Source of the DNA: Syncephalastrum monosporum B8922
Taxonomy: Eukaryota > Mucoromycota > Mucoromycetes > Mucorales > Syncephalastraceae
Direction: 5' to 3'
Assembly: GCA_000697355.1 (NCBI GenBank)
Contig: JNEN01000772.1
Span: 1-23,620, forward strand
Length of the DNA stretch: 23,620 nt
The position numbers and the translations under genes are program-made. Positions 1-23,377 of this stretch are shown one piece after another. The notes beneath the pieces were generated by a model that saw nothing but the letters and a program-made list of their open reading frames with translations, was not told the DNA's origin and ran no database searches. Numbering within the stretch: position 1 is the first letter of the stretch; each line of letters opens with the position of its first letter.

Positions 1-2412
1 CCACCTCTTCTTCTTCCTCTGGAGCCCGCGCCGGGCGCTGGAGGTCGCTCGGTCTGCTACCCTTGGTCAATTGCTCGACAGCGGCGCGGCGGATGTTTCT
101 GCTAGCGTTAACGTCACGTTGCCATAATCTGTGGCAATTCTTGCAAGCTAATACGCCGTGCAACGCGTATTCCAACTCGGGTGGTCGAAACTTCTTGAGT
201 CTGGCCTTCTTGTCACGTTGCTTGCAGCGGGAGCATACCTGCGACGTGAGATACTCGTCAACGTTGACAAGCTCCAACAGTCCTTGCTGCCGCCCACGTT
301 TCAGCATCTTGGTGAGACTGCCAGCCAGGCTTGCGGTTTGCTTGCCCCGGTAGCTCGATGGGAATGCTGCGCTTCCGAGAGCTATGAGAGATTTCTTGGT
401 CGACTTTTGAAAAGGAGTCTTCCGCCATTTCTTCTCGTTGCGTTTTTGGACTCTGAATGAATTGCACAAATGTCAATATAAAAGTAAGGCGTTTTGATTA
501 TTTTTTTTTTTAAAAAAACACATACCTTTGGCCATGCATTTGCGGTTCTGGAAACATAGGCTCAGGAATCATGCTTGTTGAAGGGTATGCCACTTGTTGC
601 CGGCCAAATTCCAATGGAACAGAGGAAAGATCAAGCGCCAGGTCGATATCGCCAAAAGCCGCGCTGGCAGGGCCACCGGACATGCCTAGAGGGTCAAAAG
701 ATACGACTGGAGGACCGCCTGGTGGAAATACAACTTGCTTGCGAAGTGGTGCTGGGACGGACGAAAAGAGGTCAGGCTGCCTTTGAATCGTTTGCCATGT
801 GTCCCAGTCCCATTGTCGGTGGCTCTTCCATCGTTGGCGCGCCTCATTTTGCCTTTGATGCGCTTGCTCTCGCTGGTCATGCACGCCTCTTGCCTCTTGC
901 CCCTGACGCAGTTTGTCACGCTGTTTTCCTAGGCGTTCCGGATTATATTTTCGGCCTCCGTCTACGAAAATATTCAAGATTTCTGCTTCAGCGCGCTGAC
1001 GGCCGGCATAGTTGTAAAAGCGAAGACTTGGGCCATGTTGACGATAAAAAGCGTTCAGACGCGGCAGCAGAGTAAACAGCTGCTGGAGGTAAATTGTGAG
1101 CATGGCTGGGTCGGAGGTCTTGTAGCGAAAATTGCTCAGCTCGGTCTCGGCCTGGATGATGCCTTCTGTTTGCTTCGCTTCCAGCATTCGTTTGTTTGTT
1201 TTCTTGTAGCCTGCAATGGAGTAGAATTCTGCAGAAGTCATCTGGCGGATCTGATGTGGTGCTTCATCGTGATCGTTGCTTGCGACGAAAATCTCAGTGA
1301 CACCAGGATCGACGCCCCATACTTCGTACTTGTCGATCTGTTGCTCCTCTTGGTCTGTAACGAACTCTTCGATTTTTGGGACAGGTGTTTCTTCTTGTCT
1401 TTTCCTCGCCAGAATAAAGTCCACACCGAAACCGTCGCTCTTGATATGGCCAGTAAACATAAAACGAGGCGCTGGGTCTTCGAGAGTGGCAAGCATGTTG
1501 GGGAAACCAATGGCGGAAAAGTCGAACGTGGCATCAAAAACCGTCAGGCCTTCCTCCAGTGTTTTCGGATGTGGTGTGTGAATGCCTGCTCGTCGTAGTA
1601 TGGCCGCGAGCATTTCGCCGTCGATATACGAATAGCGCCTGCCTAGACGACAAGACGGCGCCAAGCTAAAGTACGGTCGTTGCTGGGCCACCAGATAGGC
1701 ATCGGGAATGAAGCAGTCCTCGAGCTGTATTCCGGCAGTGTCACCGCTCTGGTACCGACGTGAGTTTTCTATCTGGCGCCTGGTATTAAAGATAGTGTCG
1801 CGGATGGTCTGGCGGGACGGCGCTGAAAGTTTATCGGGGTCCATGAGACTCTCGTCCTTATTGACGGATCCTTGGAGATGCTTCACCAGACGGTTACGAT
1901 ATCTTCGGCCGAGTTGCGGCCACTCTGGCAGCTCGCGTAAAACAGAGAAGGCCCATGCACGTGTTGCTTCAACTTGAGGGCGATTGGCTGCTTCTATCTG
2001 CTCAGCGTTAAAGTTTTCGATGCGCCTGAGAGCTCGATGCATGAATGGAATGTAGTAGTCAGGGTGCGAGGAGAGCTTGGTGGTCGTGATGGGAAGGGCC
2101 CCATCTGGCAGGTCTTCTTGTGCAGCATCAACCATCGCGTTGATTCTCTGTTGAAGCACTTTTGTCTCTTTGATTTTGGTAGGCCATCGGGCTTGTTCCT
2201 CTTCTCTTGCAAAGCGGCTGTAGATATACGGAGCCAAGCGCTTAGCATCTTTGACGGCCAGCTGTCTGAGGCGAATGTCGTCGAGCAGTTCATACATGAA
2301 ATAGTTTGTGATGTTGCGTTCGAAACGTTCCGAGAGCGAGTTTCGAAAGGCCGTCCCAAATTCAACCGCAAGGTTTTGATGCTTGCCAGCAGTATCGTAT
2401 ATATTGATACTA
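1..2412 (-). CDS. Fanzor (eukaryotic TnpB/OrfB-like RNA-guided nuclease), 3' end beyond window
   Basis: Likely an RNA-guided DNA endonuclease of the Fanzor family. Numbering from the ATG at 2297, residues 281-330 carry a TGHIKSDGFGVDFIL-type strand and then RuvC-I (WGVDPG, D330). The stretch GRQRAEAEI (about 432-440) is typical of OrfB-like proteins of early-diverging fungi. A GTATGT donor (exon end 526) and CAG acceptor (exon start 452) define a 73-nt intron; without splicing the frame stops within a few codons. Exon 2 supplies VDEYLTS (RuvC-II, E657), a zinc ribbon CSRC...CKNC (C664, C667, C694, C697) and QRDVNASRNI (RuvC-III, D704), so the D-E-D triad is intact. The frame stays open to the window edge in an acidic tail. 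It is also open upstream of the ATG to a CAG acceptor (exon from 2412) without a Met, so an upstream exon is likely. Residues 450-590 are a Q/R- then P/G-rich insert. Family knowledge: Fanzors use a guide RNA encoded near the gene end, which lies outside this window. Whether it is active is unknown. Confidence 0.88.
453..525 (-). other. Fanzor intron (73 nt)
   Basis: The minus strand reads CAAAG|GTATGTG at the donor and ATTCATTCAG|AGTCC at the acceptor. Splicing joins a split AG|A arginine codon and restores the frame straight into the RuvC-II/zinc-ribbon/RuvC-III exon. Without it the protein would stop shortly after the donor and lack two catalytic residues. Confidence 0.85.
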
Positions 2413-2610
2413 CTGTGTAAAATTCAGTTATTTTTACTCCTCTTTATGCAAATATTGACTGTGTGTATTTGTCCGGATAGTGTGAGGAAGTGACAGACCA
2501 GGGATGGAAGAGAGCGGGACGTGGCAAATAGGAACAAAACGGACAGGACAGGAAGCAGACAAGACAAGAAAGACTGAGAGGTTAAGACAGAGGTGACAAG
2601 GATGCTGTAT
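2413..2610. promoter_or_regulatory. Fanzor 5' flank, purine-rich on plus strand
   Basis: This is the gap between the first visible Fanzor exon and the stop of the next minus-strand coding remnant. Read on the Fanzor strand it is strongly pyrimidine-rich (CT runs around 2480-2600), as in many fungal promoters and 5' leaders. No TATA box or start codon that obviously joins the Fanzor frame was found. The missing first exon could lie here or in the next 300 bases. Confidence 0.3.
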
Positions 2611-3580
2611 TTACATCTTCATCTCACACGATTTCAGCTCGTCGCTCAACATCACAGACGGGCTCTGACTCTCCATGAGTTCCACCTTCTTCCTCGCGAC
2701 CGCCAAGCATATTCCACTGTTGCCGCTTGTCGTATATATCTGGGTACCGATTAGTATGGTTCCGACCTACATTCGTCAGCGAACCTGCTTCAACCTTGTA
2801 ACTGCTTCCTCCACAGTATGTTCATCAATTTGGAATACTGCTTCGACCTCGACATTGTCCTCTTATCACTGGACACGTCCAGCGGGTGCACGCGTGGCCC
2901 CAACTGATCCATAATGGTGCGCTGCATGATGCTTTCGATACTGCGCACCGTGTCAGCATACTCAGCCAAAGTGTTGATACTCGACTCGGTGTAAGTGTTG
3001 TCCAGTCGAACGAGGGCGTCCATTCGACTGCGTAGATCTTCCCAGTACTTTTTCTTCACATATAGCATCCTGTGGGTGTTCAAACAAAGAATAAAAAGGG
3101 TAAGCACCTTGACACAAAGACAGAGGAAGACTTACGGTAGTTTCATACGACGCTTGATCTTCCCCATTGCGACCCTCTCTGATGACTTGGGTCGCAATTT
3201 GCCGGAAAATCAAATATGCTGTTTTCGCCTGCGAGATAGTCGCCAACCTGGGCTGGTCACAAGTGTCGATATGCTTACAGGCTGCATCTCCAGGCGCGAA
3301 CTGAGACTAAAAGACGCTCGGCACATGGTGAGAGTCGACAAATGGTCGAACTTACTGCGCACCTGCTTCAACTGGTACATGGAAGGCATTTCTTGAGCGC
3401 GTGCGGTGTTGGCGTCAGCAAGCATGACTTTTACTCTGTCCACTGCATCGCAATCAATGTATATGCGCGTTTCAGCGGTCGGAGTGAAATGTTTGGTTGC
3501 TGGTCCTAGGTTCACAGACTGTATGTCAAGTCTTATGCTTGCTGTCACCAGTACGCTGCAGGTGCGGGATCCTACAATTA
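2611..3580 (-). pseudogene. Unrecognised multi-exon gene, copy A (decayed)
   Basis: I do not recognise the product. Minus-strand coding is supported by similarity in frame, with mostly conservative changes, to copies at 4807-5115 and 11430-11690. One exon (ending 3356) carries LGPATKHF and ends in YQLKQ. A 49-nt intron (donor GTAAGT, acceptor TTTTAG) leads to an exon at 3306-3136 with DQPRLATISQAK and LIFRQIATQVI. A 66-nt intron (GTAAGT...CACAG) leads to an exon from 3069 with KKKYWEDLRSRMDAL, mostly helical and charged. The frame then changes near 2855 (stretch FQIDEHTVEEAVTRLKQ). A probable last intron with a TACTAAT branch site and CAG acceptor gives a final exon 2739-2611 ending CEMKM-stop. 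The frame break and the out-of-phase 66-nt intron point to decay. The flank at 3684-3935 holds an oppositely oriented exon of the same family. Confidence 0.5.
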
Positions 3581-3683
3581 ATTTTGTGCCGTCCGCGCTG
3601 GGTAGGAGGCAAACCGACAGGTTAAAATAATGTCCCGACCTTCTTCGAGATCTTCGAGATGAGCTGAGGGCTCCAGATAACCT

Positions 3684-3935
3684 TTGTTCAGCGTGGGCAT
3701 CAATCAGGCAGTCCCGGGCATACGGCTCGACCGTATTCAGCAAGATGGCCGTCGTTCCTTCCACCAGCATCAAGCGAACGGGACCGGTAACTTTTCAGGC
3801 CTCAGAATCGTCGGAAATGCCATGTTGAACAGTCAACTGGTCGGCCTCGCTGCAACGATTGTTACTCATGAAGGCGAACTCAATAGCAAAAAGATACCTG
3901 AAATAATCAACATTATGTACAGTGAAGGCTCCTAA
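3684..3935 (+). pseudogene. Inverted exon of the same unrecognised family
   Basis: Read on the plus strand, a CTTTTCAG acceptor near 3798 is followed by a short exon with RIVGNAMLNSQLVGLAA and KKIPEI, ending at a TAA. The same exon occurs at 11077-11271 (minus) and 4635-4807 (minus). Changes between copies in this frame are largely conservative (R/K, V/I, D/E, F/L, V/M), and each copy has a TTTTCAG acceptor at the same place, which supports this strand as coding. Here and at 11.1 kb the exon points away from the neighbouring exons of its own family, so it is probably a rearranged remnant. No function can be assigned. Confidence 0.45.
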
Positions 3936-11076: not shown

Positions 11077-11700
11077 CTAGGAGCCTTTATTGTACATAAT
11101 GCTATATATTTCAGGTATCTTCTTGTTGTCAAGCTCGCCTTTATGAGCAACAACTGTTGCAGCGAAGTCGACCAGTTGACTATTCAACATGGCATTTCCG
11201 ACGATTCTGATTTCAGACTGGTCTGAAAAGACCCGGTTCCGTTCGCTTGATGGTGGTGGAAGGGACGACAATCATCTTGCTGAATACGGTCGAGCCAGAT
11301 GCCCAGTACTTCTTAATTGATGCCCACGCTAAACGAAGATCATCTGGAGCACCCAGTTCGTTCCCAACAATAGCTGAACGCTTGAAACCTGTCCGTTTGC
11401 CTTCTCCCGAGCGCCGATAGTACAAAATTGGTTGTTGGCACACCTGTGGCCTACATAACGGCGAGCACCAGACTTGATGAACAGTCTGTCGATCTAGGAC
11501 CGGCGACAAAGCACTTCACCTCGACCTCTGACACGCGCATATACCTTGATTGTGAAGCCGTGGGCAGAGTGAAGGACATGCTTCCCGACGCCAACACCAC
11601 ACGAGTCCAAGAAATGCCGTCAATATACCAATTGAAGAAGGTACGCAGGTGCCGCGCATTTTCTGGCCTCAGTTCACGCCTTGAAATGCAGCCTTTGAGT
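11077..11700 (+). pseudogene. Unrecognised family, copy B, fused to retrotransposon debris
   Basis: This segment is homologous to 3300-3942 in opposite overall orientation. It includes a minus-strand exon at 11077-11271 (RIVGNAMLNSQLVDFAA, KKIPEI, TAG stop) and a plus-strand part. That part has SVDLGPATKHF, TRIYLDCEAV and PSIYQLKKV at about 11428-11640, with several stops and shifts between. Homology to copy A continues past the former intron and breaks off near 11700, exactly where RNase H sequence begins. The shared back-to-back arrangement of exons in copies A and B means the inversion happened before the two were duplicated. Confidence 0.5.
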
Positions 11701-14187: not shown

Positions 14188-15366
14188 TTAGGCCTTCTCG
14201 AGCTCGGCTTGACGACGCGATTTGCTGTTGGGATCAAAGAAAGGTTTCTCGGCCTGCGGTGACACGCGCCAGCCATGTCGCCGGCCAATGTCCAGGTAGT
14301 CAAAGATTGCATTATGCGCAGTGACACGGTTGTCCCAGACAGCCACTGTATCTTCTGTCCAACGGAACCGGACCTGGAAGTCGTGACCAGATTCGATGTG
14401 GTTGATCAAGAAGTCGAGCACAGCACGTGACTCACGGTAGCTCATGCCCACAATACTGCGCGCGAAGCCCGGCTGGATATACAACGCCTTCCACCCTGTC
14501 ACGGGATGTGTGCGTACCAATGGGTGCACGGAACTAACATGGCTGCGCCGAGAAATGTGGCCCCGCTTGATGGCTTCTTCTTGTTGCTCTTTAGCCGAGT
14601 GAACGACTTGCAAACCATCCGCGAATTTCTGCCATGCGGGCGACAGACGATCATATGCGGTATAGCCACTCAACCACATCGTGTCACCACCGATCGGGGG
14701 CAAAGTGTCGATCTTCAAGAACGTTAAGCCCAGTGGCTGATGTTCGTAGCTAACGTCCGAATGCCACGAGTCGCCAGCGCTGCGACCATTGAACAGATCT
14801 TGGGGTGTCCTTTTAGATGTGTGATTAGATTATGATTTCTATCAGTGATATCAACTTACTTCGTGTCAAAATAAATAATGTGCGCTTCAGGGAGACCATC
14901 AGGATGACCAGAAGAATTGTGGATATGTAAGCGTCCATAGTGCTTGCCGAGCTCTAACCCCTGCTTGATGCTTATGTCCTGGTCACGAAAAAACACGACT
15001 CCGCGCTGGGCCACCAGCAGGGCCAGGTCGTCCTTCTGCTGGCTGGTCAGTTTGGACAGCTGGATGCCATGCACCTCGGTACCGATATGAGGCGTAAGGT
15101 CAAAAATTTTCTCGGCATTATCATAGATTGATGACTTCTTGGGGTCGGCACGATGGCCTGGGTCAGTGTGCTCAAATGGCTCAAGGTTGGGATACTGTCA
15201 TACGAGATATAGCACACAAATGATGAGGAAGGGAAAAAGTAGTAGAACGAAAATATACCTTTTTCTCTGGGTAAACGGTATACGCACCACTTTTGGCGAG
15301 TTCCTTAAGGTCTAGGTCCTTAAATTCCTGCACAAGCTCCGTTGTCTCTGCGTGGGGTGGTGCCAT
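14188..15366 (-). CDS. TauD/TfdA-family 2-oxoglutarate Fe(II) dioxygenase
   Basis: This non-heme iron enzyme uses 2-oxoglutarate and O2; fungal members release sulfite from taurine/alkylsulfonates or hydroxylate other acids. Three exons fit exactly: 15366-15259, 15194-14860 and 14809-14188, with introns of 64 and 50 nt (GTATAT...CAG, GTAAGT...AAAAG). They give 354 residues, normal for fungal members. Visible motifs are the N-terminal core THIGTEVHGIQL-type block with VFFRDQ, the iron motif WHSD (H164, D166), distal H313 in RVTAHNAIFDY, and the 2OG-binding Arg in GRRHGWR (R324/325). The start is the first ATG, giving MAPPHAETTELV. It ends ELEKA-stop. No signal peptide, so probably cytosolic. 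It lies about 1.3 kb from a carotenoid oxygenase on the same strand. The exact substrate cannot be told from sequence; sulfonate is the default for the family. Confidence 0.92.
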
Positions 15367-21357: not shown

Positions 21358-21955
21358 TGTTCCCCTTTCCCCTTTTCGGTATTTTTGACCATCCACTTTT
21401 CAAAAGGATGGATTTTTTTCCATCCATTAACCTTTTGGATGGTCAACTTTTTTCACTCCATCACCTTCTTGGATGGATACATTTCCTTTTCCAATCATAT
21501 CTTATCCCTTTTCCCTTCACATATATTTTAGCAAATCTAGCAATTAGTATAAATACTTCCATAGTTTCTATTCAAAGACATCAGTCAATTGCAGATACAC
21601 AAATACAGCTCTATCTATCTTATCCTTGAAGCTTATATTCTCCATTGCCTCCGTTGAAACAGCCTACTCCATCGACAAACACAAACCGCTACCTATATCC
21701 TTTTCATACACACACGCAAGAGACGTGATATTCCTCTTGCCCTTTTATCTTTTCCTAAACTTGTAACATCAAGAGACGCACGTTCCTCTTGACGTTTTCT
21801 CTTTTCTTTTTATTTCTTACCTTTCCGTACACGTACACGTTAAACACATAACTTGTGGTTTGACTGGTGTCTCATTACAAAACACCTATTCACACACCCA
21901 CATTATACCTTTTTTTTTATCTTACCCAAAACCACCTATCACTTTTTTACTCTAT
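21358..21955 (+). repeat. 5' LTR (right boundary approximate)
   Basis: Starts TGTTCC and carries nested inverted repeats (GACCATCC 21387-21394 with GGATGGTC 21437-21444; GGATGGA 21406-21412 with TCCATCC 21419-21425) and a TATAAATA at 21548-21555. Two CAAGAG...CTCTTG stem-loops follow (21717-21739, 21770-21791). The right end is placed by a CA just before the TGGTGCCC motif and could be off by tens of bases. Confidence 0.55.
21548..21555 (+). promoter_or_regulatory. TATA box in the 5' LTR
   Basis: TATAAATA about 190 bp into the LTR and about 540 bp before the gag ATG is positioned to start the element's full-length transcript. Only the motif and its place support it. Confidence 0.45.
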
Positions 21956-22084
21956 CACTTGGTGCCCTTATCACTACACAACCCCATCACCTGGTGCTCT
22001 TACTACAGGGGACGTTATACGACAAATTTACCGCGAAATCGCCTACAACCTACCAAGAAATTCACTTCTGCAGCAATCAAGAAA

Positions 22085-23377
22085 ATGACCGAACAACAGA
22101 ACACACCTGTGTTGGCCCAAGAGCTGATCAACGGAAACGCCTTGCGCACTTACTCTGGTGCACTGCATGAAGATTTCACAGCCTTTCGTGAAGACTTGGA
22201 GTCATCTTTTGCCTTGGGCAACGTGACGAAAGAAGGCCGCAAAAAGCAAATCCTATTCGCCCAACTACGTGGAGCCGCACGCATTTACTACAAGGAGAAC
22301 CTACTCCAACGAGCCAGCAACGCACTTTTTTACGACATCACCACTGCAGTTAAAGGACAATTCATTACGGACGAAGTCTTTATGCAGATGCGGAATTTAT
22401 TTGACCGTATGCATCAAGGAGAACAAGAAGCGCCGAACAGCTTCTACCTGAGACTCCTGGTCGCCACCCAACACGCTGAAATTGATAACACTGGAGGTGT
22501 TATCGAATCAAGATTCAAGGCCGGACTCCAACCACGCTACGCCAACCGCTGTGCGAAAATGGGTGCCCTTACCTTTGCCGAGTTCAAAAGATTCGCCCAA
22601 GCCCTCTGGAACACAGAATCCAGCACACGCACAGATATAGTACCTGAAGTTTTCAACGCATATCGCATGGCAAACGGTGAACGAGCCGTCATTCAAAATA
22701 TTATGCCGTCTAATTTCATCGCGCCTGCAACTGCCTTGATCATGAACGAAAGGGACCGCATAGAGCTATCGAACCTGGAGCGTATCCACGGACCAGAGCA
22801 TGACCGCCGCCTTAACCAATTCTTCACCGAAGCCCTCAACGAAGGATGCTCGTTGGCCGAAGCAGCACGCCGTGCCGCTCGCCGTACCATCCTATCTGCC
22901 TTCAACGAAATGTACCTGGATGGCAGATGGCCCGCACCGACCCTGCGCCCGCCGCGGCAAGAGTATCAGGATCGCCGCCTGCATTACCAGGATCGCCGAC
23001 CACAGTATCAGTACTGTCGTCCTCAGTATCAAGGCCGCCGGCAAACATACAATGATCGTCGCCCGCAACAGCTAGTCGGACACCGCCCGCGCAATGAAGA
23101 CTCTCGCCCTGCTCCTGTCACAAATCAAATGCTGAACCTATGGGACCACGCTTACCAACTTTCAACAAACTCGAAGGCGCACAAGCCGAAATCGTCCGAC
23201 TCCAAGAAGAAACCAAGAGACTACAAGGCAACGTCGAAGACCACAAGCAATCCCAGAAACGCCGCGCTCGCCATATCAATAAGCTTGTGGCCAAGAGTCG
23301 ACACACAAACGGACAACAAAGAAACTCTGTGTACCGTGCGCTTTTTCGACGCAAGTACATGTCGGCGTACGACGTAG
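22085..23377 (+). CDS. Gag-like protein of the LTR element
   Basis: ATG at 22085 (GAAAATGACC context) is preferred to the upstream open frame because the earlier codons read low-complexity leader and LTR. The 430-residue frame begins MTEQQNTPVLAQELINGN. It has FTAFREDLESSFALGNVT, KKQILFAQLRGAARIYYKEN, then RNLFDRMHQGEQEAPNSFYL and FKAGLQPRYANRC. This is the pattern of a Ty3-type retrotransposon capsid (retrotrans_gag: short edge helix, K..xL..L.G.A, helix-rich C-terminal half). A helical stretch follows (LNQFFTEALNEGCSLAEAARR). A basic tail of YQDRR-type repeats (about 22955-23065) stands where a CCHC knuckle would usually be. The last about 80 residues of this frame look spurious, because another frame there is more protein-like. 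Probably forms the particle around element RNA. Confidence 0.75.
   Translation: MTEQQNTPVLAQELINGNALRTYSGALHEDFTAFREDLESSFALGNVTKEGRKKQILFAQLRGAARIYYKENLLQRASNALFYDITTAVKGQFITDEVFMQMRNLFDRMHQGEQEAPNSFYLRLLVATQHAEIDNTGGVIESRFKAGLQPRYANRCAKMGALTFAEFKRFAQALWNTESSTRTDIVPEVFNAYRMANGERAVIQNIMPSNFIAPATALIMNERDRIELSNLERIHGPEHDRRLNQFFTEALNEGCSLAEAARRAARRTILSAFNEMYLDGRWPAPTLRPPRQEYQDRRLHYQDRRPQYQYCRPQYQGRRQTYNDRRPQQLVGHRPRNEDSRPAPVTNQMLNLWDHAYQLSTNSKAHKPKSSDSKKKPRDYKATSKTTSNPRNAALAISISLWPRVDTQTDNKETLCTVRFFDASTCRRTT

Follow-up and report, generated by a model that had tools for sequence, protein, structure and literature searches.

A probable Fanzor1 gene, split by an intron and truncated at its 5' end, on a contig of Syncephalastrum monosporum

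Does the end of a contig from the fungus Syncephalastrum monosporum B8922 encode a working RNA-guided nuclease? The initial annotation had proposed that positions 1..2412 hold a Fanzor with a complete RuvC triad and a zinc ribbon, read across a spliced intron. The window analysed here is the complete contig (JNEN01000772.1, 23,620 nucleotides; our contig C40), one of 198 in a 27.5 Mb assembly (GCA_000697355.1). We conclude that its minus strand from 2411 to 1 very probably encodes a member of the Fanzor1 family that is split by an intron, has lost its 5' part, and has its 3' end beyond the contig. Direct support comes from homology, the catalytic triad, the ribbon, an intron position that relatives share, selection acting on exon 1 as well as exon 2, and the fold modelled for the nearest deposited relative.

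Exon 1 (526..2411, minus strand, as for all parts of this gene) is an open frame of 628 codons plus 2 nt that aligns to residues 273-842 of a relative in the same genome, L014. It encodes the remaining REC/WED part and RuvC-I; its start codon is unassigned, the first in-frame ATG being at 2297. Unspliced, the frame from 2411 stays open until a stop at 510, exactly as the initial annotation had it. Removal of a GT-AG intron of 73 nt (453..525, phase 2) gives a 779-residue protein that is open to the contig end. Exon 2 (1..452) encodes RuvC-II, the zinc ribbon, RuvC-III and the start of an acidic tail, and scores 43.4 bits against PF07282 on its own. It reaches the contig end without a stop codon, position 1 being the end of the contig within the coding region. 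All coordinates and motifs given earlier are present on this strand. The elements of the span 1..2412 also hold, except that 2412 is not a gene start: it marks approximately where homology to relatives ends.

The three catalytic residues align on those of Spizellomyces punctatus SpuFz1, numbered as in PMC10432273. Asp368 of WGVDPG in RuvC-I (1308..1310) aligns to D383, Glu695 of VDEYLTS in RuvC-II (254..256) to E541, at a shifted position typical of Fanzors, and Asp742 of WQRDVNASRN in RuvC-III (113..115) to D606 in the RD of SpuFz1. The ribbon, CSRC-x26-CKNC (134..235), is supported by the PF07282 match. Triad and ribbon are complete, as proposed. In the suggested profile search, the spliced protein reached 39.7 bits against PF07282 (OrfB/Cas12f1-like zinc ribbon; cut-off, 26.3), while four TnpB/Cas12f models matched below their own cut-offs. 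A Fanzor fingerprint has been described as DPG in RuvC-I and a Glu six residues ahead of the ribbon (PMC10711439). Both are found here, as VDPG and as E-YLTSQV-C, with the Glu six residues ahead of the first ribbon Cys. SpuFz1 (PDB 8gkh, 9ceu-9cez) shares the catalytic D-E-D, the ribbon and the fold, but is encoded by a single open reading frame (ORF) of 633 residues (PMC3627910), has DPN where the window protein has DPG, and retains a complete N-terminal core. Together, the PF07282 score, triad alignment, ribbon and relative's fold bear out the Fanzor identity, and profile and fold ranking place the predicted window protein in Fanzor1.

The fold comes from the nearest deposited protein, P0001 (Syncephalastrum racemosum BCR43DRAFT_518717), whose structural model shows the Fanzor1 fold. 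Structure prediction had been proposed as a check on the RuvC residues; it bears out the fold in this relative, but RuvC-III and the ribbon lie outside the model and the window copy itself is not covered. P0001 was the sole close relative found, with two matches among 7,993 scored candidates and one match with the family profile. It is 57% identical over 89% of the window protein and has the same insertion in RuvC. It differs in keeping about 365 N-terminal residues that are absent from the window copy, and in lacking the ribbon and RuvC-III in its deposited model.

The intron was assessed by comparing spliced models of four gene copies: that of the window and its genomic relatives L014, L011 and L015. 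Its place and phase are identical in all four models, with lengths of 73 nt in the window, 62 nt in L014, and 153 nt in both L011 and L015; the intron sequences differ between the close and middle groups of relatives. In the window it runs GTATGTG...CATTCAG and interrupts the codon AG|A, and P0001 reads across the junction without intron sequence. Selection acts on both sides. The window and L014 proteins are 62% identical, and the ratio of nonsynonymous to synonymous divergence (dN/dS, from our own Nei-Gojobori script) comes to 0.26 when 754 codons are compared; exon 2, with 145 aligned codons, gives 0.17, and segments of exon 1 give 0.24-0.36. The profile score, the intron site shared with L014 and these ratios put the observation beyond chance. 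The 73-nt intron claimed between RuvC-I and the last three motifs is thus present at 525..453, backed by relatives, and looks real, well supported by comparison.

Around the intron site lies a fast-evolving, family-specific insertion in RuvC (526..944, running a few codons into exon 2; delimited in our A2 alignment). From the catalytic Asp to the Glu, the window protein counts 327 residues and SpuFz1 158. Residues 500-629 are 37% identical to L014 (dN/dS, 0.36), and part of the insertion is modelled as disordered in P0001 (912-989). Parasitella parasitica PpFz1 (PDB 9cf0-9cf3) is likewise a Mucorales Fanzor1 with a RuvC insertion, the cyclophilin-binding FRI of about 100 residues (PMC11423790). 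The window's insertion is not shown to be of this type: in alignments the positions differ, the FRI lying earlier in the chain and the window's insertion further along, past the YxxRQRA segment. A [YF]PPGGP stretch is common to the window, L014 and P0001; that it is an FRI-like feature is a guess.

Homology to L010, L014 and P0001 ends at an approximate 5' break at 2411..2413. The 1069-residue L014 protein matches the window at residues 273-842 and 889-1019 only (other matches have E >= 3), P0001 matches the contig from residue 366 onward only, and searches of the window and the contig for the 270 N-terminal residues of the relatives found nothing. The fold common to solved Fanzor1 chains begins at P0001 residue 238-245, with a first strand at 246-253 and a first long helix at 262-300 in the model. 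About 120 residues of folded core, corresponding to P0001 about 244-365, are therefore absent, leaving the WED/REC core incomplete; this is a fault of the window copy, not of the family. The stretch preceding the core is mostly disordered in P0001 (1-232 below a predicted local distance difference test score, pLDDT, of 50). A knuckle-like CxxC...C motif, spotted by eye in this stretch of L014 and P0001, is gone from the window copy. At the other end, the stop codon of L010, L014 and L016 comes after an acidic E/Q/H-rich tail, and the contig ends before the corresponding stop, the 3' end, and any guide RNA. We conclude that the copy is 5'-truncated and, as its core has lost the first strand and the first helices, probably inactive alone. 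The earlier description of an RNA-guided nuclease is not supported for it as an intact enzyme.

Fanzor1 proteins are eukaryotic TnpB relatives carried by mobile elements; in the window's copy, the coding sequence is split within the RuvC insertion. The protein of an intact relative would be expected to associate with an omegaRNA derived from the 3' end of its element. With a guide taken from the flank, its RuvC site would cleave matching DNA next to a short motif, the mode published for SpuFz1; the window bears on the protein side of this scheme only.

Several points weigh against our assignment. Splicing in the cell is inferred from comparison. The fold was seen in a model of P0001 that has a mean pLDDT of 65 and lacks RuvC-III and the ribbon. 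The Asp-to-[TS] spacing is 329 residues, beyond the D-X(125,275)-[TS][TS] published for the sequences known in 2013 (PMC3627910), with the order of the motif parts kept. Likewise, the search pattern of PMC10711439 has 120-160 residues from DPG to E and a ribbon gap of 12-18, and the window protein has about 325 and 26. We regard the published Asp-to-[TS] range as a description, since it is the insertion that makes up the excess and since the relative's fold matches Fanzor1. Searched alone against solved chains, the window protein matched only one, weakly: the mimivirus TnpB-like L79 (E 0.067), whose PDB entry is titled Fanzor2. That match speaks for a recently acquired bacterial-type TnpB or a Fanzor2, a reading to which we give almost no credence.

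The final point is that, although truncated, this copy keeps an open frame of 779 codons, unexpected in an old dead copy. The truncation may therefore be recent, or an exon may have gone unseen. The latter would make the locus an intact, working Fanzor1, with a short upstream exon supplying the N-terminus and a stop codon and guide RNA just beyond the contig end. The open frame and the purifying selection relative to L014 fit such a gene, as does a candidate acceptor, ttttacacag, directly at the break; given that the N-terminal 270 residues left no trace and that none of the upstream ORFs matches a family above its cut-off, we regard it as improbable. The alternative that the gene is a decayed transposon fragment, open only because it was truncated recently, is somewhat favoured. 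It overlaps with the truncated Fanzor1 that we propose, for which expression is left open. The 5' truncation agrees with decay, and so does the state of this multicopy family, in which 51 stretches of the genome match P0001, many other copies are fragmentary or contain stops, and L010 and L029 are broken; the 779 codons without stop or frameshift argue the other way. The upstream DNA (2420-3170) has no other copy in the genome and no match to the 5' DNA of L010 and L014. Upstream of the Fanzor copy lies a small ORF in two exons separated by a GT-AG intron (2795-3163, minus), with only a below-cut-off DIRP match.

At least 26 PF07282 matches are listed for the genome, 25 of them over the cut-off. 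By similarity to the window protein, L010, L014 and L016 form a close group and L009, L011, L012, L013, L015, L026 and L029 a middle or sister group, the remaining copies being more distant. At the right end of the group to which the window belongs, L016 diverges past ...CCGGCAATATCCT, but L010, L014, L050 and L051 continue. Just past the stop codon, partial degenerate direct copies of the coding 3' end occur at L010:1737-2065, L014:2041-2399 and L016:1706-2052. Hidden RNA constraint at the coding 3' end was considered and is not claimed: four-fold site divergence is low relative to L010 (6/35, P 0.006) but not clearly so relative to L014 (10/31, P 0.32; exon 1, 65/151). No Rfam family was found in the window at gathering cut-offs.

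The sister group has a sharp right end: a 122-nt right-end query matches the genome 14 times, and 13 of these matches reach a common boundary (...TTTCAG; ...TTGTTCGTTTCAG) and then differ in their flanks. The right ends concerned are those at L011:1816-1940 (minus) and within L033-L045. At least four loci (L026, L040, L041 and L043) keep this end with only a small part of the gene. L040:1673-2098 and L041:1035-1442 are deletion derivatives that have one internal deletion joint in common and retain the sister right end. Such small copies recall the 'ghost' loci of S. punctatus (PMC10432273). Neither terminal inverted repeats (four loci) nor target-site duplications (two loci) were convincing in the sister group. 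The stretch of about 80 nt ahead of the boundary is intron-like, with GTAAGT in 11, CTAAT in 10 and TTTCAG in all of 13 sequences, counted in a set anchored on TTTCAG; the boundary alignment was not so anchored. A weak consensus hairpin ahead of the boundary, in 11 of the 13 sequences, has 12 pairs, one of them with a two-sided change, and an unfavourable covariation term. As a lead, drawn from sister elements and not from the window, the stretch could be read either as the end of an omegaRNA or as an intron. It is a long shot that this intron is spliced, with the boundary as acceptor and a read-through 3' exon joined to the flank, so that guide RNAs would be made by splicing or gene insertions buffered; the window's element, with its 3' end beyond the contig, could share the arrangement.

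Elsewhere in the window, a carotenoid-oxygenase gene (RPE65, PF03055; 16687-18521, minus) lies in two overlapping frames, implying an intron or frame break between them, and a piece of a TauD/TfdA-type dioxygenase (PF02668, 1e-36) lies at 14188-14718 (minus). Segments 3355-3934 and 11078-11648 form an inverted repeat pair with 77% identity; they are probably old retroelement pieces, because the ORF located at 11428-11790 matches RT_RNaseH, albeit below the cut-off. A 505-residue ORF (21860-23377, plus) has no Pfam match and is retrotransposon gag-like by eye only.

Fanzor1 has been reported in Rhizopus, Phycomyces and Mucor (Bao and Jurka 2013, PMC3627910). The same article describes Chlamydomonas Fanzor1 genes with five and ten exons, supported by expressed sequence tags, and the multi-exon CRe-1/2/3, often 5'-truncated with their 3' ends kept. 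Going by these descriptions, the window gene has the Mucorales host, the several exons and the 5' truncation in common with them; as all three features are already on record there, it is not a new kind of gene. Our search found no literature on Fanzor in Mucoromycota or Syncephalastrum, most subscription papers lying outside its reach. What is added is a Fanzor1 subfamily of Mucorales type whose gene is split by an intron and whose RuvC domain bears an insertion of its own.

It was also suggested that automated annotation may miss such genes as hypothetical proteins. This holds in kind, as P0001 is deposited as a hypothetical protein and matches no Pfam family, but the cause differs: its gene model does skip this intron and ends ...VDEYLTSQYLQQTVAA just ahead of the diagnostic ribbon. 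Exon 1 alone has no match in Pfam or NCBIfam, nor the ORF 2297..510 in Pfam. The locus is a concrete case of introns and faulty gene models hiding Fanzors. The most unusual lead is the intron-like right end in the sister group; if it is used as such, it would bear on how eukaryotic guide RNAs arise.
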